Shown here piece after piece: positions 131 to 12,810 of a stretch of 56,376 bases of DNA; position 1 is the stretch's first letter, and each line of letters opens with the position of its first letter. The notes under the pieces are model-generated. The model saw only the letters and a list, made by a program, of their open reading frames with translations, was not told the origin of the DNA and searched no databases. Both the position numbers and the translations under genes were made by a program. Source of the DNA: Salegentibacter sp. 24 (GTDB lineage Bacteria; Bacteroidota; Bacteroidia; Flavobacteriales; Flavobacteriaceae); assembly GCF_004362395.1 (NCBI RefSeq), contig NZ_SNWE01000027.1, positions 1-56,376 of the forward strand. Direction: 5' to 3'.

Positions 131-185
131 AAAATAAAAAAATGGTTGATCGAAAAGCTTTTATGCTTTTTAATCAACCATTTTT
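131..185 (-). terminator. terminator of lpdA, possibly bidirectional
   Basis: ATGGTTGAT at 142-150 pairs perfectly with ATCAACCAT at 173-181. An inner stem, AAAAGC at 153-158 with GCTTTT at 165-170, extends the hairpin. On the minus strand the stem is followed by a T-rich run (complement of the A-rich 131-141), just after the lpdA stop codon. A shorter T-run at 181-185 could also serve a plus-strand transcript entering from the left. Confidence 0.8.
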
Positions 186-202
186 CTTGTAGTTATATAA
201 AA

Positions 203-1609
203 CTATACGTGAAGTGCACGATTCTCGGTGGCAGCCAGGGCAGCTTCCTTAACCGCTTCGGCATAAGTTGGATGCGCATGACTGATTCTGGAAATGTCCT
301 CTGCAGATGCCCGGTATTCCATGGCCGTAACAGCTTCAGCAATAAGATCGGCAGTACGTGCACCAATCATATGTACCCCTAACACCTCATCAGTTTTTTC
401 ATCGGCAAGTATTTTTACAAAACCATCGGTATCTCCACTTGCCCTGGATCGGCCAAGTGCACGCATAGGGAATTTTCCTTCTTTATATTTTACACCATCT
501 TCCTTAAGCGCTTCCTCGGTTTTACCCACTGAAGCAACTTCAGGCCAGGTATAAACCACCCCCGGGATTAAATTATAATCGATATGTGGTTTTTGTCCGG
601 CAATGGTTTCAGCTACAAAAGTTCCTTCTTCTTCAGCTTTGTGAGCGAGCATTGCTCCACGAACAACATCACCTATAGCATAGATATTCTCTACATTTGT
701 TTGCAAATGTTCGTTAACCTCAATCATCCCTTTATCGGTTACTTTAACTCCTGCTGCATCAGCATTTAAGCCATCAGTAAAAGGCTTACGACCAACCGAA
801 ACCAGGCAATAATCTCCTTTAAACTCTACTTCTTTATCTTTTTTATCATCAGCTTTGATGATAATCTCATCGCCTTTGCGCTCTACCGACTTCACCTTGG
901 TAGAAGTATGGAACTTCACCCCTTGTTTTTTTAATACTTTTTGAAGTTCCTTGGAAAGTGCACTATCCATAGTTGGGATAATACGATCCAAAAACTCAAC
1001 CACAGTTACCTCAGCTCCCAAACGGCGATAAACCTGCCCGAGTTCCAGTCCAATAACTCCACCCCCAATTACAATCATATGCTTGGGAATTTCCTTAAGC
1101 TTTAAAGCTTCGGTAGAAGTAATAATTCTTTCCTTGTCAAGTTCTATAAAAGGAAGGTTTGCTGGTTTTGAACCAGTGGCAATAATTGTTTTTGCAGCTT
1201 CGATGGTCTGGGTCTCACCATCATTATTTTCAATATTAATATGGGTGTTATCTTTAAAAGAACCAACCCCTTCAAAAACATCGATCTTGTTTTTGTCCAT
1301 CAGGAACTTTACTCCGTCGCAGGTTTGACTTACAACAGATGATTTTCGTTCCATCATTTTTTCAAGATTTACTTTAACTTCTCCCGGAATCTCAATTCCG
1401 TGGTCCGCAAAATGTTTTACAGCATCGTGGTAATGATGGGAAGAATCCAATAGCGCCTTACTGGGGATACAACCTACATTAAGACAGGTTCCACCCAATG
1501 TTGAATATTTTTCTATGATAGCAGTTTTCATTCCCAGTTGCGCGCAGCGTATAGCGGCCACGTATCCTCCTGGGCCAGATCCTATAACTGCAACATCATA
1601 TTTACTCAT
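203..1609 (-). CDS. lpdA: dihydrolipoyl dehydrogenase
   Basis: This is the E3 flavoenzyme that reoxidises dihydrolipoamide in the pyruvate and 2-oxoglutarate dehydrogenase complexes, passing electrons to NAD. The 468 residues match the family length. The FAD-binding glycine motif is at residues 10-15 and the redox-active disulfide pair is C42/C47 in GGTCLNVGCIPSK. The NAD-binding motif VIGGGVIGLELG is mid-protein, and the C-terminal dimer region carries the active-site HAHPTYAE. The ATG at 1609 follows a well-formed promoter (1649-1679), so the gene is probably its own unit despite lying behind the aldehyde dehydrogenase. A terminator sits directly after it. Nothing is odd in the sequence, and the housekeeping role is secure. 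Confidence 0.96.
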   Translation of the reverse strand: MSKYDVAVIGSGPGGYVAAIRCAQLGMKTAIIEKYSTLGGTCLNVGCIPSKALLDSSHHYHDAVKHFADHGIEIPGEVKVNLEKMMERKSSVVSQTCDGVKFLMDKNKIDVFEGVGSFKDNTHINIENNDGETQTIEAAKTIIATGSKPANLPFIELDKERIITSTEALKLKEIPKHMIVIGGGVIGLELGQVYRRLGAEVTVVEFLDRIIPTMDSALSKELQKVLKKQGVKFHTSTKVKSVERKGDEIIIKADDKKDKEVEFKGDYCLVSVGRKPFTDGLNADAAGVKVTDKGMIEVNEHLQTNVENIYAIGDVVRGAMLAHKAEEEGTFVAETIAGQKPHIDYNLIPGVVYTWPEVASVGKTEEALKEDGVKYKEGKFPMRALGRSRASGDTDGFVKILADEKTDEVLGVHMIGARTADLIAEAVTAMEYRASAEDISRISHAHPTYAEAVKEAALAATENRALHV

Positions 1610-1648
1610 AATTTTATCTTTTATGTTGATTTTTTAACAAAGTAAACA

Positions 1649-1679
1649 CAAAAGTACAACTATTCAGGGCAATGACCAA
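1649..1679 (-). promoter_or_regulatory. Bacteroidota-type promoter of lpdA
   Basis: Read on the minus strand, TTG (1679-1677) is followed after 20 bases by TACTTTTG (1656-1649), matching the Bacteroidota -33/-7 pattern TTG-N19/20-TAnnTTTG. Transcription would start near 1645 and give a leader of roughly 35 nt before the lpdA ATG. It is the only promoter in the window where I see both boxes. Confidence 0.6.
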
Positions 1680-1697
1680 TGCCACTAAAATTATGAT

Positions 1698-3056
1698 TTA
1701 AGCTTTAACATAAACTGTTTTCTTATTGACAAATTCCATCATTCCTTCTTTTGCCAGTTCCCGTCCGTAACCAGATCGCTTGGTTCCACCAAATGGAAGT
1801 CGGGGATCGGATTTGACCAACTCGTTGACAAAGTAGGCACCATCACTTACTTTTTCAGCCATTTCCATAGCCTTTTTAATATCTTTAGTAAATACGGTTG
1901 TACCCAGCCCAAATTTTGATTTTTCTGAAAGTTCAAAAGCTTCCTCTATACTTTTTGCTTTAATAACAGCTGCTAGAGGACCAAAGGTTTCCTCATCGAA
2001 AGCAGGCATGCCAGGTCTTACATTGCCAAGAATGGTTGGCTGATGAAAACAATTATCCTGCTCCCCACCAAGGATTAGTTCGGCGCCCTGTTCCAGTGAT
2101 CTTTTAACCTGACTTTGAAGTTGATCGGCAAGATCCTTCCTGGCCAGTGGACCTATCTGGGTAGTATGGTCCATTATATCTCCTACTTTTAAATCATTGA
2201 CAGTAGCTTTGAATTTCGAAATAAATTCCTCATAAATTCCTTCTAATAAAATAAATCGTTTCGCTGCAATGCAGCTTTGTCCGCAGTTTAACATCCTGGC
2301 CGAAACGGCCGTCTTTACAGCCCGATCAATATCGGCATCTTCCCAAACAATAAAGGAATTATTTCCGCCCAGTTCAAGTAAACTCTTTTTAATATATTTC
2401 CCGGAAAGCTGTGCCACTGCCGACCCTGCGGCTTCACTTCCGGTTAAAGTAACCGCCTGAACTGCATCGTGAGCAATAATCATTTCCGTTTGATCGTGGT
2501 GGACAATTAAATTCTGAAAAACACCTTTTGGATATCCTGCCTTTTTGAATACTTCTTCAATTTTCAAAGCACAGCCAAACACATTTGGCGCGTGTTTCAA
2601 AATTCCGGTATTTCCAGCGGTAAGTGTTGGCGCGGCGAACCTGAAAACCTGCCAAAATGGAAAATTCCATGGCATAATAGCGAAAACGCTTCCTATGGGA
2701 TCATGCCTCACATAGCTATGGGTGGCATCGGTTTTTATCTCTTCAGGAGCTAGAAATCCTGCAGCATTTTCAGCGTAATAGTCACATACCCATGCGCATT
2801 TATTAATCTCAGCTCGTGATTCAGAAATTGGTTTTCCCATCTCCTGAGTGATCATTTGCGCATAGTCATTAACATGGTCCCTTAATACCTGTGCGGCATT
2901 TTTTAAAAGTGCAGTTCTTGAGGAAAGAGGCTTTTTGCTCCAATCTTTAAAAGCATTTCCAGAAAGGTTTAAAACTTTTGAAGTTTCTTCTGTTGTTTGC
3001 GCAGTATACTTCCCCACCTGCACTCCGTTATAGGGATTTGTGCTATAAAATTCCAT
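1698..3056 (-). CDS. NAD(P)-dependent aldehyde dehydrogenase, succinate-semialdehyde type
   Basis: This protein belongs to the aldehyde dehydrogenase superfamily and oxidises an aldehyde to a carboxylate with NAD(P). The best guess is succinate semialdehyde to succinate, the last step of GABA use. Visible motifs are PWNFPFW (N131), the general base E228 in LLELGG, and the nucleophile C262 in CGQSCIAAKR. At 452 residues it is slightly shorter than GabD, resembling the short GabD1/Sad group. It lies downstream of a cluster holding a GABA-type aminotransferase, which supports a semialdehyde substrate. A 150-base gap with a perfect inverted repeat separates it from the C45 gene, so it may have its own control. 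Substrate specificity is inferred only. Confidence 0.85.
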   Translation of the reverse strand: MEFYSTNPYNGVQVGKYTAQTTEETSKVLNLSGNAFKDWSKKPLSSRTALLKNAAQVLRDHVNDYAQMITQEMGKPISESRAEINKCAWVCDYYAENAAGFLAPEEIKTDATHSYVRHDPIGSVFAIMPWNFPFWQVFRFAAPTLTAGNTGILKHAPNVFGCALKIEEVFKKAGYPKGVFQNLIVHHDQTEMIIAHDAVQAVTLTGSEAAGSAVAQLSGKYIKKSLLELGGNNSFIVWEDADIDRAVKTAVSARMLNCGQSCIAAKRFILLEGIYEEFISKFKATVNDLKVGDIMDHTTQIGPLARKDLADQLQSQVKRSLEQGAELILGGEQDNCFHQPTILGNVRPGMPAFDEETFGPLAAVIKAKSIEEAFELSEKSKFGLGTTVFTKDIKKAMEMAEKVSDGAYFVNELVKSDPRLPFGGTKRSGYGRELAKEGMMEFVNKKTVYVKA

Positions 3057-3132
3057 TTTGTTTTATTTTTTATGACTTTGGATTAGGGTTGAGAATTATT
3101 TAAAATTAGAAGGAATTAACTATAAAGACTAA

Positions 3133-3168
3133 TGTCATAAATAATAGCAAAATCCATTATTTATGACA
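3133..3168 (-). repeat. perfect 13-base inverted repeat upstream of the aldehyde dehydrogenase gene
   Basis: TGTCATAAATAAT (3133-3145) and its exact reverse complement (3156-3168) flank a 10-base spacer. The repeat is 77 bases upstream of the aldehyde dehydrogenase start and 38 bases after the C45 stop. No clear T-run follows on either strand, so a simple terminator is unlikely. It could be an operator for a dimeric regulator or an intercistronic mRNA hairpin. Confidence 0.6.
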
Positions 3169-3205
3169 CCAGGTTTTATAATTTTCTTAAATTAAAAAAT
3201 AGAAA

Positions 3206-4456
3206 TTAATTCCTCCAGGAATCGTAATATCCTGCCCCCATTTTACTCCAGAAACCGGCTACAGCCTGCCAGGAGACTTCTCCATCATTAATTATTTCCC
3301 CTCTTAATTTTTCAAGTTCCTTTTCGTTTGTTGATGGGTGGGCCTGAGCCATAGCATTTACCATAATTTCAGTAATGCTTTCCTGCCAATCCAGATTCTC
3401 TGCGTATTGCTCTTCAAATGGATCTTCTACCGTATTGGCCATTTCTATAGCTGGCTGGTTCCAATTGTGAGCTGCAATCTGGGCTGGTTCGTAATTTATG
3501 AGCTTATAAACCTCCTGAAAATTTTCAAAGGTTTGTTGTAAAGAAGTTTCAGGCCACCGAAGTTCTACTGAGCCTTTCAAGGGTTGGTATACCGAGGTAA
3601 ACAAGGTTCCAAAACCTTCCTTAAATTTAGTGTTATAAAGAGGCGCCTTTAGAAAAGCATCGGCTACCTCAGTGGAATCTACTTTTTTAGCTGACAATAT
3701 TTTATTTAGAAACGAAGATCTTTCCAGGGTTTTATTAAAGGCCGCATTTTCCGGCCAGTCTATTGTTCCCTGGTGATTGGTCGTAAAAGCAGCATCAGTT
3801 ACCAGTGGGGCTTTATCTGGCGCCAGTTGTACGGTTTTAAATTTCCCTGTTTTATCAACAACGGTTACGTTATAAGACATATGGGAAGGGATCCTGCTCA
3901 AAGCTTCTACAGCTTGCGCTACATTGCTACAAAATTCCAAAACATAACGTAAAATAAAGGGGATACCGAAACCTACGCCTACCTCTTTTCGACCTCCGAA
4001 AGTTAGGGAAACAGCAAGACCTTCCTCATTCATCCCATCTACGGCACCAATTAAGCAATCGCTGGTTGCTATCACCTTTTTGTTATTCCAAGAGGTGAGC
4101 AGTTGTGTTCCCTCCATTAGGTCCGGATGAAAATCGTAATTTCTAACCAGCTGAATATCTTTCCCAGTAGTAACTGCCTGGGAGCAGCCACTTATGTATG
4201 CTGGAGGTTGGAAACCTGTTAAAAAACGAGCCGCAAGCTTATCTCCTTTTGCAAGTTTGCAAAGGCGTTGATAAGTAGGCCACATCTCTGGCATAAACTT
4301 TTTAAGTGCTGCCTGCGATGTTTCAAGATCAGGATAATTGGCAGTTCCTTTAGAATTAAGCCAGGTTTTATAAGCTGGCCAGTGAGTCTGATATAATTTT
4401 TTCCATTTTGACCCAGGTTTTCCAGGTTCAGAAATAGCATTGAAATATAATTGCAT
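3206..4456 (-). CDS. C45-family autoproteolytic Ntn hydrolase / acyltransferase-like protein
   Basis: This is a member of the Ntn-hydrolase superfamily related to acyl-CoA:6-aminopenicillanate acyltransferase and bile-salt hydrolases. These enzymes cut or transfer linear amide bonds using an N-terminal cysteine exposed by self-cleavage. The likely nucleophile is C91 in ISGCSQAV, so cleavage between G90 and C91 would give chains of about 90 and 326 residues. Family motifs RNYDFHPD (about 105-112) and DGMNEEGLAVS (about 140-150) follow as expected. No signal peptide or membrane segment is seen, so it should act in the cytoplasm. It follows the ATP-grasp gene after 85 bases. Whether it hydrolyses or makes the amide produced by its neighbours is unknown. 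Confidence 0.8.
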   Translation of the reverse strand: MQLYFNAISEPGKPGSKWKKLYQTHWPAYKTWLNSKGTANYPDLETSQAALKKFMPEMWPTYQRLCKLAKGDKLAARFLTGFQPPAYISGCSQAVTTGKDIQLVRNYDFHPDLMEGTQLLTSWNNKKVIATSDCLIGAVDGMNEEGLAVSLTFGGRKEVGVGFGIPFILRYVLEFCSNVAQAVEALSRIPSHMSYNVTVVDKTGKFKTVQLAPDKAPLVTDAAFTTNHQGTIDWPENAAFNKTLERSSFLNKILSAKKVDSTEVADAFLKAPLYNTKFKEGFGTLFTSVYQPLKGSVELRWPETSLQQTFENFQEVYKLINYEPAQIAAHNWNQPAIEMANTVEDPFEEQYAENLDWQESITEIMVNAMAQAHPSTNEKELEKLRGEIINDGEVSWQAVAGFWSKMGAGYYDSWRN

Positions 4457-4541
4457 TGGTATGGGTTTTAAATAACTATTTGTATCATTAAGGTTGGCAA
4501 AGTAGTTTTAATTCCTCTTAAACCTTCAGAATATCAGTATA

Positions 4542-6332
4542 TTATTTAGTTAAAGTTCCTGATAATTTTGGCTTTTTCTTATCTTCTACCATCTCAGAAC
4601 TATATTGTCCCCTAATAGCTTTAATCCAATGCTTGGCCCTGTTATTAAGTTGAAAATCATCGGTCATCATTCTCCCTCGGCTAACTAGTATTCCCATATC
4701 AGCGCCTTCATAGAGATAATCTCCTTTTCTGCTAATTCTCAGAAAGAAGGCTTCATTTTCATTCTCTACCGCTCTACGGTGCGTATCCATCCTATCGAAC
4801 TGGATATGACCAGTATCGTACATTCTATAGATACCGGAGCTTGGTGCTTTAGTAACATATTCTATGGTATCTTCAGTATGCTTTACAATTAGCTGGCTCC
4901 ATCCATCAATATTTTCCTGGTGTGCCCAACGATTATTAATAGCTTCGATATCAAGTTCATAATCGATATCCATCCATTCTAAGATATGAAAAACAAAAAG
5001 AGGTGCATCTGCAAGAGCAAAAACAGCGTGATTCGTTATAGAACTAGCTCCGGTAACCCTTGGATTTAATTCTCCTAAATAAATCTCTCCGTTATCCTGA
5101 TCTATTAAAAAATCGAGTTCAAAATATCCTTTATAGCCTTCTTCTCTTAATTGATTTCCAAATAATTGGGTATATTCAATAGCTTTATCTCTAAGTTCTG
5201 GAGTAAATGCATTGGGATATATCTCATTGCCACACCAGCCACCTTCATAAGGGGTTAGTTCCTTAAAGCCTACGAGTTCCGTCATTAATGGAGCTACAAT
5301 TGTTCCGTGCCGGGTAACGCAAGCTTCTATGGCAGAACCTCTGCAGCGAATACGCTTCATCACTTTAACTTCCTCCTCTTTCTCGATCTCTTCTGCATTT
5401 TTTTGATACTCTTCTTCATTCGAAATAAAGAAAGTAGTATGACCAGAATCCCCAAATGGAGTTTGAATAACCAACTCGTTACCAAGGTGTTTTGAAACCT
5501 CTCTTAGATGCTGATAATTATTTACTTTAGTCAATACATAAGGCACACAGGCTACTCCTGCTTTTTCTGCAATCCGGTTGGTATTGACCTTATTGTCCAG
5601 AAAAGTTCGCATTTCGGCTTTGGGGAACATAATTTCCAGGCCTAGTTTATTTGCAAGTTCTTCAGTTTTTTCATTAAACATAAGAAACATGGCTTTACCA
5701 GCCTTCCCATTCACAGATCTTGTTTTAAGATAATCCTGAACCTCGGGGTGTTGCAAAAGATAATTGTTTATGTCTTCAATACCTTCAAAATCATCGTGTG
5801 GTATCTCGGTTTTTGGTGAAAACACGTTAGGATGCAGCCCATCAAAGCACTCTATATGGCAAATAAATTTGAATCCTTTAATCCATTCATCAGCTCCTAA
5901 AAGATTGAAGTTAGTAGCACTTATAAAGTATAAGGGTTCTTCATTTTTATGGAAAGATCTACGAATATCTGAAACTCCCTTGAGCCCATTCTTTCTTTTA
6001 TTAGGACCAGGTGTATTGACAGCCAAATTTTTATCTTTAGCCTTAGTACCTCCCACTGTCTTTTTAATTTTAGTACTTTTGGCCTTTCCACCGCCGGAGG
6101 CGGTAGTAGTTTTTTTCTTTTTAGCAGTGGAAGAAGCAGGAGTCTTACCTTGCTGAGCAGTGGAGTCCGATGGTACGGATTTCTTTCCTTTCAAAGGTTT
6201 TTCTTCGGTAACTTTTAATTTACGGTCTTTTTTAGCACTGCGTTCGGGAGAAATCGGTTCTTTTTTTGGTGTGGTTTTCTTTTTATTAGTTGCTCCTTTT
6301 TTACCGGAGGTCTTTGGCTTTTTAGAATCCAT
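4542..6332 (-). CDS. ATP-grasp ligase with lysine-rich N-terminal tail
   Basis: Residues 1-120 are a low-complexity tail rich in Lys, Thr, Ser, Pro and Gly (many KKKK and KKTT runs). Residues about 130-575 form an ATP-grasp carboxylate-amine/thiol ligase of the kind often labelled biotin carboxylase. The Mg-ATP residues are recognisable: ELDFLID (405-411) and LGELNPRVTGAS (419-430), with E421, N423 and R425. There is no biotin-carrier or carboxyltransferase domain, so peptide- or amide-bond formation is more likely than carboxylation. The start lies 4 bases after the decarboxylase stop, so the two are surely cotranscribed. The tail resembles histone-H1-like bacterial tails and may bind nucleic acid, polyanion or partners. 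Substrates are unknown. Confidence 0.85.
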   Translation of the reverse strand: MDSKKPKTSGKKGATNKKKTTPKKEPISPERSAKKDRKLKVTEEKPLKGKKSVPSDSTAQQGKTPASSTAKKKKTTTASGGGKAKSTKIKKTVGGTKAKDKNLAVNTPGPNKRKNGLKGVSDIRRSFHKNEEPLYFISATNFNLLGADEWIKGFKFICHIECFDGLHPNVFSPKTEIPHDDFEGIEDINNYLLQHPEVQDYLKTRSVNGKAGKAMFLMFNEKTEELANKLGLEIMFPKAEMRTFLDNKVNTNRIAEKAGVACVPYVLTKVNNYQHLREVSKHLGNELVIQTPFGDSGHTTFFISNEEEYQKNAEEIEKEEEVKVMKRIRCRGSAIEACVTRHGTIVAPLMTELVGFKELTPYEGGWCGNEIYPNAFTPELRDKAIEYTQLFGNQLREEGYKGYFELDFLIDQDNGEIYLGELNPRVTGASSITNHAVFALADAPLFVFHILEWMDIDYELDIEAINNRWAHQENIDGWSQLIVKHTEDTIEYVTKAPSSGIYRMYDTGHIQFDRMDTHRRAVENENEAFFLRISRKGDYLYEGADMGILVSRGRMMTDDFQLNNRAKHWIKAIRGQYSSEMVEDKKKPKLSGTLTK

Positions 6333-6336
6333 GATT

Positions 6337-9093
6337 TTAATTTTTTAAGTTAGTGATCTTTTTTTTAGAATTGTTCGCCATAGAGCCCATAGAGCTCACT
6401 GTTTTCTGGCGGTTTAGCACATTGTCTTTAAAAATTCTCAGGCCGAGATCTGCCCGGTAACCGTGAATTTCTGATACATCCAGCGCTGTTAGAAACCGGA
6501 CAATTTCTTCACTTACGACCTGACCAGGAACAAGCACCGGAAATCCAGGTGGATAAGGAATTATAAAAGATGAAGCTACAAGGACCCTGTTGTCCTCCAT
6601 GGCGGGCAAACATTCCAAAAGTGGCATATATTCATAATTCTCCTCATTGTAGGCCAAGAAAAAAGCTTCTCGTATATTTCCTCCAGGAACTCCAGGAACT
6701 GCCTGGAAGGAATGGTGGAAATAACTAAAATCTGGTAAAGGTGGAAAGTCCTCGGTCAAAGACTTAATTCGGTCTTGACGATTATTCCCTTCCTTTTGAC
6801 TAAGGGTTTTAAATTCCTGATCCAGCTCATCGGCAATTTTTAATAGTGCATTTGTTAGATAAGTAACACTTCCCCTGGTAGTTCCAATATTTGTCATAAA
6901 CAAAACCGTATTCCTGGAGGTTTTGTTAATCTGAATATTAAATTTATCCATAAGATATCTGTTCTTAAAAGTATCACCATCCACTCCTGTTCTACCAATA
7001 TGCAGGGTGATTTTTGTGGGGTCCAATACAAATTCATCCTGTTCCCAGGCAGTTTCCATCCTGGTCCAACCTTCCTTGGAATTATAATATTCTTTTATAC
7101 CCGATTTTCTGTGCTGTTTGGGGATAAAGTTCCCTATGGTTAATACATCAAAATATTTCTTTAACCGTGGGTGATCGTTGACTTTAGCCCTTAGAACCAT
7201 TGCCAGTTCAATACTTTTCTCTACTAGCTCATAACCTTCGAATTGCACCTGCCTTCTTCCGACATCCAGAGAGGCCAACATCTGATAATTTGGAGAAGTT
7301 GAGGTATGTGTCATATAGGCTTCCATAAAAGTATTCTCACTTTTTTTACGGAAATCTTCATCCCATACATGTATCATTGATCCCTGGCGAAAACTACTTA
7401 GGGTCTTATGTGTACTTTGAGTTGAATAAACCCTAATGCGAACTTCATCGGGATTGGGCAGACTAGGAATTTCATTCTTTTTTAAAGATTTTATATGGGC
7501 ATTGTATTCTTCCCGGTAAGTATTGCTTTGGTATTTATCAAACAATTTTTTAGCAACAAACATTCCTGTACGTTGCTTATAATTATAGGTAAAACCAGCA
7601 AAGGCAAACCAGGCTTCATCCCACAAAAAGATCATATCTGGTTTTATAGCCAGAATCTCCTGCATAACTCTTTCAACATTATAAACCAACCCATCAAAAG
7701 TGCAATTGGTTAGCAATAACATCTTAACCAAACTTAATCTACCAGCCTTTTTTAATTGAAGCAATTTTTCTTTAATCTGCTCTAATGGTACTGCGCCATA
7801 CATGGAATATTCTTCTATAGGATAAGAATCCAGATAAACTGGATAAGCGCCAGCTAATACAAGCCCGTAATGGTGTGATTTATGACAGTCTCTATCTATT
7901 AAAATTACATCTCCCGGCTTTACAAGTGCCTGCACTACAATCTTATTAGCGGTAGAAGTTCCATTGGTTACAAAAAAAGTGTTTCTGGAGCCGTAAGCTT
8001 CACTAGCCTTTTGTTGTGCTTTTTTAAGCGAACCGGTCGGTTGCAAAAGAGAATCTAATCCACCGGTCGTTGATGAAGTTTCTGCCAGAAACATGTTTCT
8101 TCCGTAAAAATTTCCAAAATCCTTGATCCACCTGGATTTAAAAACCGAATTCCCCCTGGAAATTGGCATGGCATGAAATATTCCCGTAGGTTTTTTACTG
8201 TAGTCCTTTAGCGCTGAAAAGAAAGGTGTTTCATAGCGTTCACTTATTCCTCTAATAACGGTGAGGTGAAGTTCTTGTAGGTCTTCAGTTCGATAAAAAA
8301 TTCTTCTAAAAGTTTTTAAGGTGCTATCTTTTAAATTTCCTAATGCAGTATCGGTTACATAGTAGGTATCCAATTCCGGCCTAAATTTTTTAACCATAGT
8401 ACCCAAAATCGGTCCTAACTCTTTAGGCGATTTATCAGCATATTTCAGTCTTAAAATATTTTGAATAAAAGGCTTGATTACGGGGGTGATCTTTTTTGAA
8501 TGATATGGCGGTGCATACCGAATTACTACCGCCTGAATATTAAAATTAAATTGAAGGGCGATTAATGCATCCTCAAAAGAACGCTGGACTACAATTCCGT
8601 ATGCAAACTGTTCATTAGAAAGTCGCATTTCTTTTAGATCATGGCGTAATTTATTTTCTTCTGCCTGAGAAATATCCTCCACAAACATGACCTCAAAATA
8701 ATTTTTTCTTGCTACTTCGGTGTATTCCGCTTTATCGGTAAGCTCGACCCCCGGATCTTCTTCTTCTAAAAAATCAGGATTGCTTCTATACCTATCACTT
8801 ACCAAATTTTTTGTGATCTCTGCTATTTTGTGAGACAGGGCAGTATGTTCCTGTCTTTCTAACATTTCCCTTAACGAATCAATACAAGAAATACCAGGAA
8901 AGGCAAAAAAACACTCCACACCCTCAAGATCTTTTAAAAGGTGTTGGAGGTTTTTTTTGTGGACCTTTTCATTTTCTGAACCACGGGCAGCAGAATGGAG
9001 TTTAGTAGACTCACTTTTTAAGTTATTCCAGGATTCTACCCTAAGTTGAGCAATATTGTAATAATGTGCACTATCTATTTTTTTCTCTGGCAT
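6337..9093 (-). CDS. Orn/Lys/Arg decarboxylase-family PLP protein, unusually long
   Basis: This is a fold-type-I PLP enzyme of the major Orn/Lys/Arg decarboxylase family, which turns basic amino acids into diamines or agmatine. The PLP lysine is K563 in STHKTLSSF. The cofactor region includes TNGTSTANK (376-384), the HKSHH stretch (404-408) and the aspartate of DEAWFAF (D492). At 918 residues it is much longer than LdcI or AdiA (about 710-760). The extra length is mostly N-terminal: about 290 residues precede the core, with a receiver-like wing domain around 130-195. The C-terminus ends in a short basic tail (NSKKKITNLKN). It is tightly coupled to the VOC gene (2-base gap) and the ATP-grasp gene (4-base gap). 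The amino-acid substrate cannot be read from the sequence. Confidence 0.88.
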   Translation of the reverse strand: MPEKKIDSAHYYNIAQLRVESWNNLKSESTKLHSAARGSENEKVHKKNLQHLLKDLEGVECFFAFPGISCIDSLREMLERQEHTALSHKIAEITKNLVSDRYRSNPDFLEEEDPGVELTDKAEYTEVARKNYFEVMFVEDISQAEENKLRHDLKEMRLSNEQFAYGIVVQRSFEDALIALQFNFNIQAVVIRYAPPYHSKKITPVIKPFIQNILRLKYADKSPKELGPILGTMVKKFRPELDTYYVTDTALGNLKDSTLKTFRRIFYRTEDLQELHLTVIRGISERYETPFFSALKDYSKKPTGIFHAMPISRGNSVFKSRWIKDFGNFYGRNMFLAETSSTTGGLDSLLQPTGSLKKAQQKASEAYGSRNTFFVTNGTSTANKIVVQALVKPGDVILIDRDCHKSHHYGLVLAGAYPVYLDSYPIEEYSMYGAVPLEQIKEKLLQLKKAGRLSLVKMLLLTNCTFDGLVYNVERVMQEILAIKPDMIFLWDEAWFAFAGFTYNYKQRTGMFVAKKLFDKYQSNTYREEYNAHIKSLKKNEIPSLPNPDEVRIRVYSTQSTHKTLSSFRQGSMIHVWDEDFRKKSENTFMEAYMTHTSTSPNYQMLASLDVGRRQVQFEGYELVEKSIELAMVLRAKVNDHPRLKKYFDVLTIGNFIPKQHRKSGIKEYYNSKEGWTRMETAWEQDEFVLDPTKITLHIGRTGVDGDTFKNRYLMDKFNIQINKTSRNTVLFMTNIGTTRGSVTYLTNALLKIADELDQEFKTLSQKEGNNRQDRIKSLTEDFPPLPDFSYFHHSFQAVPGVPGGNIREAFFLAYNEENYEYMPLLECLPAMEDNRVLVASSFIIPYPPGFPVLVPGQVVSEEIVRFLTALDVSEIHGYRADLGLRIFKDNVLNRQKTVSSMGSMANNSKKKITNLKN

Positions 9094-9095
9094 AA

Positions 9096-9512
9096 TTATT
9101 CTTTTGAATGTAAAGCGAGTTTATTTCCTTCAGAATCAATAAAAATGGCAAAATGACCTGACTCCTGGTTTATTAAAGTTTTGGTCATTACAATTCTCCC
9201 ACCAGCAGCTTCAACTCTGTTTAAAATATGGTTTAGATCCCTTCCGGCATTGAGATAAAGAAGGGGACCAATTATTCCTGGTATTGAATTTGGCCCCGTA
9301 ACAATGGCTCCTCCAATACCCTTTTCCGCTGGAAAAAATGCCATTGCATAATTACCATCAAATTGGGTTTCCATATCAATATTGAAAATCCGATTATAAA
9401 AATCAACGGCTTGTTGAAAATTGATTGCAGGAATTTCAAACCAGCTTATAAAGTCTTTTACAGGTTGTTCTCCTTGTTTTTCTTTTTTCTTCTTTTGTGT
9501 AGTTCCTCCCAT
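9096..9512 (-). CDS. small VOC (glyoxalase/bleomycin-resistance fold) protein
   Basis: A 138-residue single VOC module of the glyoxalase I-like superfamily, whose members are metal-dependent isomerases, dioxygenases or binding proteins. It opens FISWFEIPAINFQQAVDFY and closes FIDSEGNKLALHS, which are the two characteristic beta-alpha-beta-beta halves. The first 20 residues carry a lysine-rich stretch (TTQKKKKEKQGEQ), echoing the basic tails of the next two proteins in the operon. It starts 15 bases after the nitrilase stop and ends 2 bases before the decarboxylase start. The family assignment is firm; the function is unknown. Confidence 0.82.
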   Translation of the reverse strand: MGGTTQKKKKEKQGEQPVKDFISWFEIPAINFQQAVDFYNRIFNIDMETQFDGNYAMAFFPAEKGIGGAIVTGPNSIPGIIGPLLYLNAGRDLNHILNRVEAAGGRIVMTKTLINQESGHFAIFIDSEGNKLALHSKE

Positions 9513-9527
9513 AGTTCTGTTTTTTGA

Positions 9528-10460
9528 TTATGCTCCAAATCCTTTATATCCTGTAGGATTTTCCGGTGGTTCATATTCGTGTTCTTTCAACTTTAATTCG
9601 GCAAGATTATCTAGTCGGGTAGGTTTAATAAGCGGCCCCAGGGAATTAAGATAAGGCAACTGAGCACCCTGCTGGTATATATGGAAATCACCTATATGAT
9701 CTCTAAAACTTTTTAAAGGTTGCCCTAAACGTAGTACACCTAGTTCCCGACTTCTTCTTACCCGATTTATATTGAGTTCCAGTGGAAAAATCTCTTCGTT
9801 CCCTTCAGCCTGATAGATCACCCTGCCATCGGGGCCACAAACCAGGGATCTTCCATTGCCACCTGATTCGAGCCCGTTCACATCGAAAAAGTAGCATTGA
9901 TTGACAGCGGCCATAGCCCTTACTATAGATAATTCTATTTCCCTATCTATAGTTCCTGTCATAGTTGGATGCAGAATAACCTCTGCTCCCATTACCGCCA
10001 ATGTTCGAACCGTTTCAGGAAACCACATATCATAACAAATGGATATTCCGAATTTAGCCACTCCCGGCACATCAAAAACACAGAATCCTGAACCCGGGGT
10101 AACTCCAACTTCATAAGGATAGAAAGGAAACATTTTTCTATATCGTGTAACAATTTCCCCTTGCGGATTGATCACCGTTGCAGTGTTATAGATTTTACCT
10201 TCACTTTTCTCAAAGATGGAACCTGGCAATAACCAAACTCCGTGCTTTCTGGCCATAGCCTGCATTTCCTTTTCAAAATCTCCCGGAATTTCCTGCGCAT
10301 TATGGGTTAAGGGACCGTAGCCGCATAACTCGCTAAACACTACCATATCAACCCAGGGGTAAAGACTCATGGTAATATCTAGTTTGAGCTTCATCATTTC
10401 CACATTGGAAGTGACTGCGGAAACCTTCATTTGTATTCCTGCTATTGCAAATGGATTCAT
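9528..10460 (-). CDS. nitrilase-superfamily amidohydrolase
   Basis: A carbon-nitrogen hydrolase of the nitrilase superfamily, which hydrolyses amides, carbamoyl amines or nitriles through a Glu-Lys-Cys triad. The triad is visible as E44 in FSELCGYG, K109 in YRKMFPFY and C142 in ISICYDMWFPE. The 310-residue length is close to N-carbamoylputrescine amidase and beta-ureidopropionase (about 290-330). Its place in an operon with a basic-amino-acid decarboxylase makes an amidase acting on a diamine or omega-amino-acid amide plausible, but this is inference. A -7 box at 10486-10493 may give it a promoter independent of the aminotransferase gene. Confidence 0.87.
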   Translation of the reverse strand: MNPFAIAGIQMKVSAVTSNVEMMKLKLDITMSLYPWVDMVVFSELCGYGPLTHNAQEIPGDFEKEMQAMARKHGVWLLPGSIFEKSEGKIYNTATVINPQGEIVTRYRKMFPFYPYEVGVTPGSGFCVFDVPGVAKFGISICYDMWFPETVRTLAVMGAEVILHPTMTGTIDREIELSIVRAMAAVNQCYFFDVNGLESGGNGRSLVCGPDGRVIYQAEGNEEIFPLELNINRVRRSRELGVLRLGQPLKSFRDHIGDFHIYQQGAQLPYLNSLGPLIKPTRLDNLAELKLKEHEYEPPENPTGYKGFGA

Positions 10461-10485
10461 ATATTTTCAATTTATTATTATCCGC

Positions 10486-10493
10486 CAAAACTA
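10486..10493 (-). promoter_or_regulatory. candidate internal -7 box for the nitrilase operon
   Basis: On the minus strand this reads TAGTTTTG, an exact match to TAnnTTTG, placed to start transcription about 20 bases before the nitrilase ATG. No TTG box is seen at the expected distance upstream, so it is a weak call. Confidence 0.35.
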
Positions 10494-10508
10494 TTTTTTC
10501 GGACTCCT

Positions 10509-10538
10509 TAACTAGTTTTCTCTTAAAAAAACTGGTTA
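10509..10538 (-). repeat. hairpin between aminotransferase and nitrilase genes
   Basis: TAACTAGTTTT (10509-10519) can pair with AAAACTGGTTA (10528-10538) with one wobble pair and an 8-base loop. No T-run follows on the minus strand, so it is not a standard terminator. It lies in the 166 bases between two genes of the cluster and may cause partial termination or mRNA processing. Confidence 0.4.
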
Positions 10539-10626
10539 GTACATTTACTACTTAAATTCACAACAAAATAGTTAGGTAACAGCTCCCGGAATTTTCCTGA
10601 ACAGCTTTTCAACAACTCACTAAAAT

Positions 10627-11934
10627 TTAAGTATGTTTTCTTATTTGGTTCTCCAGAATATCCAAACCTTTATTTAATTGTTTATCGCTAATTACCAACG
10701 GGCACAATATTCTTAGAACATTTTTAAAGGTACCTGCGCTTATTAAAATGAGACCTTCCTGGGCGCAGCCTTTAAGAATCTTAGCACATAATTCCGTATG
10801 TGGATTTGATGGATCGTTATCCTTTATGAATTCGATCCCTATCATAGCACCTATTCCTCTTACATCACCAATCTCCGGACATTCCTTTCTAAATGTTTCC
10901 ATCCGCTTTGTAATGATCTTACCGATATAAATGGCACGTTCATTAAGATTCTCATCCTTCATAAACTGGATAGTAGCTAAGGCAGCAGCACAACAGACTG
11001 GACTTCCTATATAGGTGCCGCCAATAGTACCCGGCTCTGCAGCATCCATGATTTTAGCACTACCCAGGACAGCAGCAATAGGAAGGCCAGAACCCATAGA
11101 TTTGGCGTAGGTACTCAGGTCAGGCTGTACTCCATAATGCTGCCAGCTGGCCCAATGACCTGTGCGACAGAACCCGCTTTGGATTTCATCGAATATGAGC
11201 AAAACCCCGTGCTCATCACAAAAGGAACGAAGTCCTTCCAGATATTTTTTTGGAATAGGATTAAAACCACCTTCTCCCTGAAGTGGCTCTACAATTATGG
11301 CAGCAACACTATTGATATCAACCATACTATGCGCACTCTCCCTGAGCCTTTTGAGTTCTGTTTCCACAAATTCTTCCATGGTTTGTGTACCGTGATATTT
11401 GTAAAAATTTGGAAAAGGAATTCGATAAACTTCTGGAGCAAAAGGCCCTGAAGAAAATTTATAGTTCACCTTACTGGTCAGGCTCATCCCCATCAATGTC
11501 CGGCCATGATATGCTTCGGTAAAACAAATTACCGCTGGTCTTTTTGTTGCCTGTCGTGCAATCTTAATCGCATTCTCCACAGCTTCAGCCCCTGTGCTGA
11601 TTAACATTGCTTTTGTTCTATCCCCATGAGGAAGAATTTCAGCAAGTACTTCACAAAGCTTGATATAAGGCTCGTATGTAACTACATTAAAACTGGTATG
11701 AAGATATTTTTCGGCCTGTTCCTGGATAGCCTTTACCACCGGTTCCGGACAATGCCCGGCATTGACAACACCTATTCCCCCAGCAAAGTCTATATGCTCT
11801 TTTCCGTCTACATCTGTTATTATTGCTCCTTTAGCCTCTTTAACCGTGGCTGTATTGAAAACACCAACTCCGTTGGCTACAATGTTTTTTCTCCTATCAA
11901 GGAGTTGCTGAGATTTGGTTTGCTCTTCAGTCAT
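10627..11934 (-). CDS. class III aminotransferase, GABA-aminotransferase type
   Basis: A class III PLP aminotransferase related to GabT/PuuE, moving the omega-amino group of GABA, 5-aminovalerate, ornithine or similar to 2-oxoglutarate. With the ATG at 11934 (MTEEQTKSQ) it has 435 residues. The PLP lysine is K278 in YAKSMGSGLP and the pyridine-binding aspartate is D249 in FDEIQSGF. An in-frame TTG at 11979 would add 15 residues, but the ATG agrees better with the family N-terminus. Directly upstream on the same strand are a possible 42-codon frame and an Lrp-type regulator. Together with the aldehyde dehydrogenase it could form a GABA-to-succinate route. The exact amine is uncertain. Confidence 0.88.
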   Translation of the reverse strand: MTEEQTKSQQLLDRRKNIVANGVGVFNTATVKEAKGAIITDVDGKEHIDFAGGIGVVNAGHCPEPVVKAIQEQAEKYLHTSFNVVTYEPYIKLCEVLAEILPHGDRTKAMLISTGAEAVENAIKIARQATKRPAVICFTEAYHGRTLMGMSLTSKVNYKFSSGPFAPEVYRIPFPNFYKYHGTQTMEEFVETELKRLRESAHSMVDINSVAAIIVEPLQGEGGFNPIPKKYLEGLRSFCDEHGVLLIFDEIQSGFCRTGHWASWQHYGVQPDLSTYAKSMGSGLPIAAVLGSAKIMDAAEPGTIGGTYIGSPVCCAAALATIQFMKDENLNERAIYIGKIITKRMETFRKECPEIGDVRGIGAMIGIEFIKDNDPSNPHTELCAKILKGCAQEGLILISAGTFKNVLRILCPLVISDKQLNKGLDILENQIRKHT

Positions 11935-11979
11935 AAATACTTGGATATTCTTTTGAATGGTTAATTTAAAAACTTGCAA

Positions 11980-12351
11980 AGGGAGGGAAGATAAAAGTAA
12001 GTAGGTCCTAAACCTTCTTTCGCCGCTTGTTAATATACAATATTATTTTCGTATATCCCACGTCCTTTACACTGAAAACCAGACTTAAAGGCGATTTATC
12101 GCTAATTTCAGGAGAGAAAACTTGTTCAATATTCATTCTAAAAGATAAACCAGAATACTATTTATTTCATTAATATTCAATAATTTATAGATCCATAAAA
12201 AGCAAACTGTAATCAATTTTTCATTTACCAAATTACCTAACTTGAAATTTTTGAAAAAATATCAAAATTAAGTTGCAAAGAACTTTAAAGTTTAATATTG
12301 TCCCATTTGAGATATTGAGGGATCCTATTTTAAAAAATTCTTTCAAATAAA
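11980..12351 (-). other. 372-base gap between lrp and the aminotransferase gene
   Basis: This stretch is very AT-rich on its lrp side (12140-12351) and less so at 12000-12130, where a 42-codon frame lies. It holds a small palindrome, GCGAT-TT-ATCGC (12091-12102), which falls inside that frame. I see no clear terminator for lrp and no complete promoter. One TAATTTTG (minus strand, 12270-12263) is too far from the aminotransferase gene to be its obvious promoter. Confidence 0.4.
12008..12136 (-). CDS. possible 42-residue protein
   Basis: A frame from ATG at 12136 to TAG at 12008 encodes 42 residues, beginning MNIEQVFSPEISDKS and ending with a very basic NKRRKKV. It sits where base composition rises above the AT-rich surroundings, 73 bases upstream of the aminotransferase ATG and on the same strand. 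There is no recognisable domain or strong ribosome-binding site. It could be a real small protein, a leader peptide, or the decayed end of an older gene. Confidence 0.3.
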   Translation of the reverse strand: MNIEQVFSPEISDKSPLSLVFSVKDVGYTKIILYINKRRKKV

Positions 12352-12810
12352 CTAAAGGGGAACAGCCGTGGTACTTTTCACAGGACTGATAACAAAGGTG
12401 CTTTGGGTGCTACCAATATGATCTAAACTGGTTAGTTTAGTGACCATAAATTCACGGTAGGCTTCCATATCTTTGACCAGTACTTTTAAAATATAATCAT
12501 ACTCGCCGCTTACATGATAACATTCCATTACCTCAGAGAGCTTCGTGACTTCAGTTTCAAATTTTGTTAGGTAAGACCGGGAATGTTGAATAAGTTTTAT
12601 CTGACAGAAAACCATAAAACTCTTTGCTACTTTATTTGGTGATACCAAGGCAACATATCCTGAAATTACGCCCTCGCGCTCCAGGCGTTTAATGCGCTCA
12701 AAAACAGCAGTTACTGATAGCTGCAATTTATTGGAAATCTCCTTATTGGTCATCTTACTATCGTCCTGAAGATGTTTTAAGATCTTCAAATCTTTTTGAT
12801 CTAATTTCAT
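12352..12810 (-). CDS. Lrp/AsnC-family transcriptional regulator
   Basis: The 152 residues show the standard two-domain layout. An N-terminal winged helix (KDLKILKHLQDDSKMTNKE, ending with recognition helix TAVFERIKRLEREGVI) is followed by the RAM/AsnC effector domain. Family members sense amino acids and control nearby metabolism genes. It is divergent from the methionine-gamma-lyase-like gene (157 bases between starts) and lies upstream of, and in line with, the aminotransferase operon, so it is well placed to control both. The effector is unknown; an amino acid used by these enzymes is the natural guess. Confidence 0.92.
   Translation of the reverse strand: MKLDQKDLKILKHLQDDSKMTNKEISNKLQLSVTAVFERIKRLEREGVISGYVALVSPNKVAKSFMVFCQIKLIQHSRSYLTKFETEVTKLSEVMECYHVSGEYDYILKVLVKDMEAYREFMVTKLTSLDHIGSTQSTFVISPVKSTTAVPL

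Follow-up and report, generated by a model that had tools for sequence, protein, structure and literature searches.

Seven enzyme genes lie together on the minus strand of a contig of Salegentibacter sp. 24, in a combination that raises the question of whether they form one metabolic unit and, if so, which compound passes through it. The window, meaning the whole stretch of DNA that was analysed, has 56,376 nt and corresponds to contig C27 of the 4.15-Mb genome. In transcription order, the genes are named here AT3 (class III aminotransferase), NIT (nitrilase-superfamily amidase), VOC (VOC-fold protein), DC (pyridoxal-phosphate decarboxylase), GRASP (ATP-grasp protein), C45 (Ntn-type autoproteolytic acyltransferase/hydrolase) and ALDH (aldehyde dehydrogenase). 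All of them are open frames with families backed by Pfam, as described in an initial annotation of the window, and are separated by gaps of 166 (AT3-NIT), 15 (NIT-VOC), 2 (VOC-DC), 4 (DC-GRASP), 85 (GRASP-C45) and 149 (C45-ALDH) bases, those of 15, 2 and 4 bases being as first reported. That annotation had read the genes as a route through an amide-protected diamine, an interpretation which is partly supported here. One of the two strongest claims of the present analysis is that the genes form one unit gained and lost together; the genes, their co-inheritance, their catalytic residues, the altered pocket of DC and the insertion site were observed directly. For the function, a route from glutamate through γ-aminobutyrate (GABA) to succinate, together with an amide linked to this route that GRASP would form and NIT would hydrolyse, is put forward tentatively, at somewhat less than even confidence.

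A conserved gene cassette next to lpdA

A scan of the GTDB genomes with GRASP gave 128 confirmed relatives, of which the best 80 loci were kept. With the count restricted to loci whose sequence extends far enough in the relevant direction, and to same-strand matches of at least 80 bits, AT3 was found beside GRASP in 62/62, NIT in 66/66 and DC in 72/73 loci, followed by ALDH (63/70), VOC (60/69) and C45 (49/77); the ALDH count takes in dehydrogenases of 26–33% identity that occupy the ALDH slot in L073, L077-L080, L082 and L083. Since these loci had been selected by GRASP, 296 Bacteroidota genomes were used as a GRASP-independent control, and they agree with the locus counts, having DC in five genomes, NIT in the same five and GRASP in four of those. 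In the fifth genome (G192), the DC match runs up to the contig edge (base 3), and incomplete assembly may be all that lies behind the lack of GRASP. Carriers of GRASP amount to 10 of the 299 genomes of the family and 9 of the 15 of the genus, own genome included. The conservation expected for a candidate pathway is confirmed by both sets of genomes: the seven enzyme genes are one conserved, patchily distributed unit, far from chance. Beyond the cassette genes, each further gene family is present in at most 11 of 83 clustered loci.

The position of the unit is given by its empty site in the genus. GRASP is absent from six Salegentibacter genomes, and in five of them lpdA and an Lrp-type gene are adjacent, with spacings of 96 (G613), 102 (G353), 101 (G569), 97 (G620) and 334 (G616) bases, the two genes of the sixth (G612) being on separate contigs. 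The carriers show a spacing of about 10.7 kb in 8/9, and in the ninth (G614) the two genes are on separate contigs, near contig ends. Homology of the non-carriers to the window ends at about 1682 and restarts at 12343-12394, and the cassette limits are placed at 1690..12345, with edges uncertain by tens of bases. As lpdA and Lrp are direct neighbours in five non-carriers, the unit is a cassette of about 10.6 kb, with the Lrp gene outside. The initial annotation had placed an Lrp-type regulator before the genes; the neighbour is indeed there, and its role as the regulator of the cassette itself is rejected for the window because it stays beside lpdA in 5/6 genus members without GRASP. An Lrp gene is close to GRASP in just 11/59 loci. 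In G616 (L140), the space between lpdA and Lrp contains a decayed ALDH tail, with matches to window positions 172-1864 and 1888-1937, from which it follows that G616 lost the cassette. Gain and loss as a block is the best explanation for these observations.

The cassette genes are spread over Bacteroidota, Ignavibacteriota, Calditrichota, Balneolota, an Acidobacteriota bin and plasmids of rhizobia and other Pseudomonadota. In a quick tree of GRASP, the families are intermixed and Ignavibacteriota appear at two points among Bacteroidota, a topology that suggests transfer without proving it; the nearest relatives of the window GRASP are from Salegentibacter species. Variants of the cassette were also seen. 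L076 is the sole locus of 73 without DC and has its NIT match in two pieces, and it may be a decaying copy. The Brumimicrobium cassettes have two tandem C45 genes (L031, 11607-14083; L036, 11606-13978). A membrane protein, which by eye is amino-acid-permease-like, lies either within the cassette or at its end in L063 (14125-15525), L084 (8372-9856) and L085 (8387-9829), its family being present in five loci. An uncharacterised protein of about 235 aa, from a family found in six loci, lies between GRASP and ALDH (L035, 11590-12291; L034, 2088-2795).

Decarboxylase pocket and probable GABA-type enzymes

DC (6337..9093, minus strand) belongs to the Orn/Lys/Arg decarboxylase family PF01276 (OKR_DC_1) and not to the GadB-type PF00282. 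Its match to PDB 9n0n, deposited as a "probable amino acid decarboxylase", reaches 770 bits over nearly the whole length. This entry and 9n0p are assumed here to be the same protein as 9n0o, which is Rv2531c of Mycobacterium tuberculosis, with an activity described as not clarified in the accessible text of a 2026 review (PMC12910592). The cofactor residues Lys563, Asp492 and His404 are conserved in 72/72 sequences (window included, short fragments left out) and are identical in E. coli CadA, AdiA and SpeF. The substrate pocket is different: Asn723 replaces the acidic residue proposed to face the terminal amine in lysine and ornithine decarboxylases (Glu526 of CadA and Glu532 of SpeF), Gln721 replaces Val524 of CadA, Arg313 replaces a Gly of the PGHxGG motif and Arg727 replaces Asp575 of AdiA. 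Lys367, Val524 and Glu526 are given as lysine-binding residues predicted by docking in a CadA-type enzyme, in the accessible text of PMC5607190. DC carries the DEAW motif, like AdiA. Among 78 chromosomal-locus DCs longer than 350 aa, that of the window being one of them, Asn723 and Arg727 are each present in 78/78 and Arg313 in the 72/72 reaching that column, and in the plasmid DCs Arg313, Gln721 and Asn723 are found in 14/14 and Arg727 in 13/14. In addition, DC reaches no cut-off of the curated NCBIfam lysine, ornithine or arginine decarboxylase models (best 203.3 bits vs 968). The pocket thus argues against lysine and ornithine as substrates and, less firmly, against arginine; that DC is not an ordinary Lys/Orn decarboxylase is the other of the two strongest claims. 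The first-proposed production of a diamine by this enzyme is not supported, in view of Asn723 in every aligned DC, of the invariant Arg313 and nearly invariant Arg727, and of the aspartate-type antiporters described next.

Eight fetched plasmid loci have a DC without an adjoining GRASP. Six members of a sister clade, hand-picked from the match list (L099-L101 and L121-L123), form one DC clade (support 0.999) separate from the GRASP-linked DCs (0.98), with the same pocket residues as these. One or two genes of the AspT type (aspartate-alanine antiporter) adjoin DC in 6/6 of them (by annotation, and by tblastn in L123), and a tblastn search of 93 other loci gave zero AspT matches. In the five loci of the clade that are annotated, none of the genes next to DC is labelled as NIT or GRASP. 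The DCs of L093 and L098 group with the GRASP-linked ones; neither GRASP nor AspT adjoins them (annotation, and also tblastn for AspT), and the L093 plasmid has GRASP elsewhere. Such an arrangement resembles a decarboxylase/antiporter system of acid resistance that works on an acidic amino acid. Furthermore, an aspartate 4-decarboxylase gene is near the sister-clade DC in L101 and L122, an HdeA/HdeB-family gene is in L101, and the Phyllobacterium locus L121 also holds an Lrp gene.

Two OKR-type genes in the pSymA stretch L104 were dismissed as DC relatives of interest because they are just 28% identical to DC and closer to CadA and SpeF (up to 41% and 52%, respectively). We take these genes to be SMa0680 and SMa0682, for which the accessible literature contained nothing bearing on DC.

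AT3 (10627..11934, minus strand; PF00202) has its open frame reaching 11979 with a TTG start, but translation more likely begins at the in-frame ATG at 11934, which gives 435 aa. Upstream of the gene, a promoter of the flavobacterial type could be matched only with one mismatch, and none is claimed. The catalytic Lys293 is present in 63/63 aligned sequences, and Glu228 and Cys262 of ALDH (1698..3056, minus strand; PF00171) in 68/68, window included and short fragments dropped. The two enzymes are nearest to the models for GABA transaminase (TIGR00700) and succinate-semialdehyde dehydrogenase, respectively. A Roseobacter ponti homologue near NIT-DC-GRASP-C45 (L086), with 45% identity to AT3, is the only scanned aminotransferase to pass TIGR00700 (542.8 bits), and a different dehydrogenase in the ALDH slot of L082, with 723.6 bits, is the sole scanned protein of that slot to exceed the cut-off of TIGR01780 (succinate-semialdehyde dehydrogenase; 646.35). 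This resemblance fits GABA better than a protected diamine, and the omega-amino-acid exit initially proposed for the aminotransferase and the dehydrogenase is supported. Matches in the own genome number one for PF00282, three for PF00491 and six for PF00202.

The plasmid contexts of GRASP may lead to the same compound. In Shinella (L092) and on a "Roseateles" plasmid (L089), GRASP-C45 and a NIT gene are 7–8 kb apart amid arginine-catabolic genes, annotated as 5-guanidino-2-oxopentanoate decarboxylase, agmatinase, ALDH and D-amino acid dehydrogenase; the unannotated L096 of Sinorhizobium RAC02 has NIT, Lrp, ALDH, GRASP and C45 matches in the same arrangement. Arginine-catabolic routes of this type end in GABA. 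The Shinella setting points to agmatine there, and GABA would be the simplest metabolite common to all these settings.

Amide enzymes and competing routes

GRASP (4542..6332, minus strand) scores 826.1 bits on NF005096 (PRK06524; cut-off 684) and has a mean column identity of 83% over 35 sequences. Its structural model has a middling confidence score (pLDDT 68.5), for which reason the Foldseek matches to biotin carboxylases, PurK and carbamoyl phosphate synthetase (best E 2.3e-12) are used for the predicted overall fold only. The protein retains an ELNPR motif (ELNPRVTGASS), with Ala where 3-methylcrotonyl-CoA carboxylase has the Glu of QVEHPVTE after EMNTR. The Glu of VEHPVTE is catalytic in biotin carboxylases, and because of this Ala biotin-dependent carboxylation by GRASP was judged unlikely. 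None of the nine window proteins scanned is a biotin carrier or carboxyltransferase, a scan that a carrier of <90 residues would escape. The biotin carboxylase name of the PRK06524 ATP-grasp family is probably a misnomer. As a separate observation, the first 120 or so residues of GRASP form an N-terminal tail that is rich in Lys and of low complexity (window 5967-6332; likewise in L084 from 9881). With the first start codon used, 57 of 82 measured tails have at least 25 residues and 41 of these 57 have at least 25% Lys+Arg. The VOC-fold protein (9096..9512, minus strand; PF00903) has a short N-terminus that is likewise Lys-rich in the sequences viewed.

NIT (9528..10460, minus strand; PF00795) has the nitrilase triad, with Glu44 and Lys109 in 67/67 and Cys142 in 66/67 sequences, the other having a gap (window included, short fragments dropped). 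Matches above 45% identity are in eight plasmid records, seven of them also with GRASP. The optional member C45 (3206..4456, minus strand) scores 168.9 on NF040521 (cut-off 85) and has its nucleophile Cys91 in 54/54 (window included, short fragments dropped); its model (pLDDT 81.8) is predicted to have the fold of isopenicillin N acyltransferase (E 1.4e-13). Families that form amides stand together here with families that break them, as first noticed. C45 as an essential step was rejected because 26 of 27 tested genomes lack a match. These 27 are the genomes of loci without C45 in the downstream DNA (control L027 matched), two of these loci sharing one genome; the test did not cover L085 and omitted L061, where C45 is upstream on the opposite strand, and L064 had too little downstream DNA to judge locally. 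Nothing was learned from the neighbourhoods of distant C45 genes, which were viewed in Sulfitobacter and S. meliloti.

The Rhizobium leguminosarum plasmids have DC-GRASP-C45 (L087, 11986-17183; L088, 11932-17202) followed by ABC transporter and amidase genes, and the stretch fetched gave no match to NIT. Genes for an RpiR regulator and a serine hydrolase are also there, and in L088 the three genes adjoin nifH, nifD, nifK, nifE and nifN. The CATCH-N paper (PMC7268258), in its accessible part, does not mention a biotin carboxylase or an amidase.

In the proposed GABA route, DC would produce GABA by decarboxylating an acidic amino acid, L-glutamate being the most likely one, AT3 would pass the amino group of GABA to a keto acid to give succinic semialdehyde, and ALDH would oxidise this to succinate. 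GRASP would use ATP to form an amide between GABA (or glutamate) and a partner, NIT would hydrolyse this amide or a related one, and C45, where present, would be a second amide hydrolase or an acyl-exchange enzyme. We infer every substrate in this scheme, the GABA node included, and the amide step, with the identity of the amide, is its least secure part. The broader proposal of a new mobile GABA pathway, with an Rv2531c-type decarboxylase of glutamate or a gamma-glutamyl amide, unrelated to GadB, and with a new ATP-grasp ligase and a dedicated nitrilase acting on a new amide, is advanced with more reserve still.

Several results weigh against the GABA route. At its aminotransferase step, the window AT3 has 500.3 bits on TIGR00700, just below the cut-off of 506.65, as do those of L067 (481.4) and L085 (496.3). 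The best NCBIfam model of the window ALDH is PRK09406 (501.7, under the cut-off of 730), its score on TIGR01780 is 337.4, and the ALDH-slot proteins of L078 and L080 are best on a lactaldehyde dehydrogenase model, pass no cut-off among the matches listed and reach 358.1 and 341.5, respectively, on TIGR01780. In L121, the class III aminotransferase by DC is not of the GABA transaminase type and the annotated succinate-semialdehyde dehydrogenase has 598.1 bits on TIGR01780, again below its cut-off. The Shinella ureohydrolase passes the agmatinase cut-off (212.3 vs 174.3). In the pocket, Arg727 varies: S. meliloti SM11 has Pro at this column of its GRASP-linked DC, and 9n0n aligns with Ile. Thr takes the place of Glu526 in AdiA, which acts on arginine, and the loss of this Glu in DC therefore does not exclude that substrate. 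As for the amide enzymes, C45 was found in one of the 27 genomes tested (G300, elsewhere in the genome) and in none of the other 26, genome completeness not being stated, so it cannot be a general amide hydrolase. Cupriavidus necator N-1 (L094) has NIT-GRASP-C45 with no DC in the stretch fetched.

An alternative is a different order of steps, in which GRASP would first join glutamate to an amine (or ammonia) as a gamma-glutamyl amide, DC would be a glutamine or gamma-glutamyl-amide decarboxylase yielding a GABA amide, and NIT (or C45) would release the GABA that AT3 and ALDH convert to succinate. This gives every core enzyme one step in line, and suits both the neutral polar residues Gln721 and Asn723 and the fidelity of NIT to DC, the two sharing the same five of 296 genomes, with NIT present in 66/66 loci. 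It is nevertheless unlikely, though the least so of the alternatives, given that the antiporter-linked sister clade has the same pocket and, where annotated (five loci), no NIT or GRASP gene named next to DC, a combination in keeping with a free acidic amino acid, and that GRASP and NIT also occur without DC in the stretches fetched from Shinella and C. necator N-1. A biosynthetic cassette, where DC would give GABA or beta-alanine, GRASP would couple it to an amino acid or amine as an accumulated dipeptide-like solute, and C45, NIT, AT3 and ALDH would serve recycling, is rather improbable. Elsewhere, ATP-grasp ligases and C45-family hydrolases do act on such amides, carnosine synthase and the Tan/carcinine hydrolase of insects being examples; here, however, no further family exceeds 11 of 83 loci, so no exporter or stress gene is linked, and the degradative end is nearly always there (AT3 62/62, ALDH 63/70).

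The route of the initial annotation resembles the E. coli Puu pathway: DC would make a diamine from lysine, ornithine or arginine, GRASP would protect one amine as an amide, AT3 and ALDH would oxidise the other end and C45 or NIT would deprotect. Six of the genes receive a role in it, DC belongs to OKR_DC_1 and shares DEAW with AdiA, and GRASP-C45 lies in arginine-catabolic clusters of two annotated plasmids, one with a protein passing the agmatinase cut-off. What stands of it is the conserved unit with amide enzymes and the agmatinase-type gene near the Shinella GRASP-C45. The diamine step is not supported, with Asn723 and Arg313 in every DC reaching those columns, Arg727 in nearly all and aspartate-type antiporters in the sister clade; as AT3 and ALDH also resemble post-GABA enzymes and C45 is absent from 26/27 tested genomes, the route as a whole is considered improbable. 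A set making and burning putrescine, in which DC would decarboxylate citrulline and NIT would act as N-carbamoylputrescine amidase, is highly improbable. Among NCBIfam models NIT scores highest on AguB, and a neutral pocket could accommodate a ureido group, but the 85.4 bits are far under the AguB cut-off of 410.25, and the added arginines and antiporter neighbours would be left unexplained. The GABA route from free glutamate is retained as the preferred, still tentative, reading.

Known systems and significance

The proposed GABA route overlaps with several described systems without coinciding with any. As in the GABA shunt, AT3 and ALDH are nearest to the GABA transaminase and succinate-semialdehyde dehydrogenase models and are co-encoded with a decarboxylase; unlike it, this decarboxylase is of PF01276 instead of the GadB-type PF00282, and the ATP-grasp protein and nitrilase are inseparable partners. 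The E. coli Puu pathway likewise clusters an amide-forming ligase, an aldehyde dehydrogenase, an amide hydrolase and a GABA-transaminase-like aminotransferase, whereas the cassette is without the glutamine-synthetase, FAD-oxidase and class I amidotransferase families of PuuA, PuuB and PuuD (Pfam) and its evidence leads away from a diamine. Lysine degradation by DavB-DavA-DavT-DavD also has a nitrilase-family amidase, a class III aminotransferase and a succinate-semialdehyde-dehydrogenase-like enzyme in series, with a flavin monooxygenase in place of the decarboxylase and ATP-grasp protein. Compared with Rv2531c, DC is similar over nearly its full length and differs at Arg727. The initial statement that no named pathway combines these families agrees with the literature search, in which no published description of the gene set or of PRK06524 was found among open-licence papers; descriptions elsewhere could be missed.

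If the proposed route is true, a function could be assigned to a widespread decarboxylase family with the M. tuberculosis enzyme among its members, to the PRK06524 ATP-grasp family and to a nitrilase subfamily. Because the genes are so tightly co-inherited, three purified proteins are enough to test it. The route would represent a new means of producing and consuming GABA in Bacteroidota and possibly also in nodule bacteria, through the rhizobial plasmids with DC-GRASP-C45, one of which has these genes beside nif genes.

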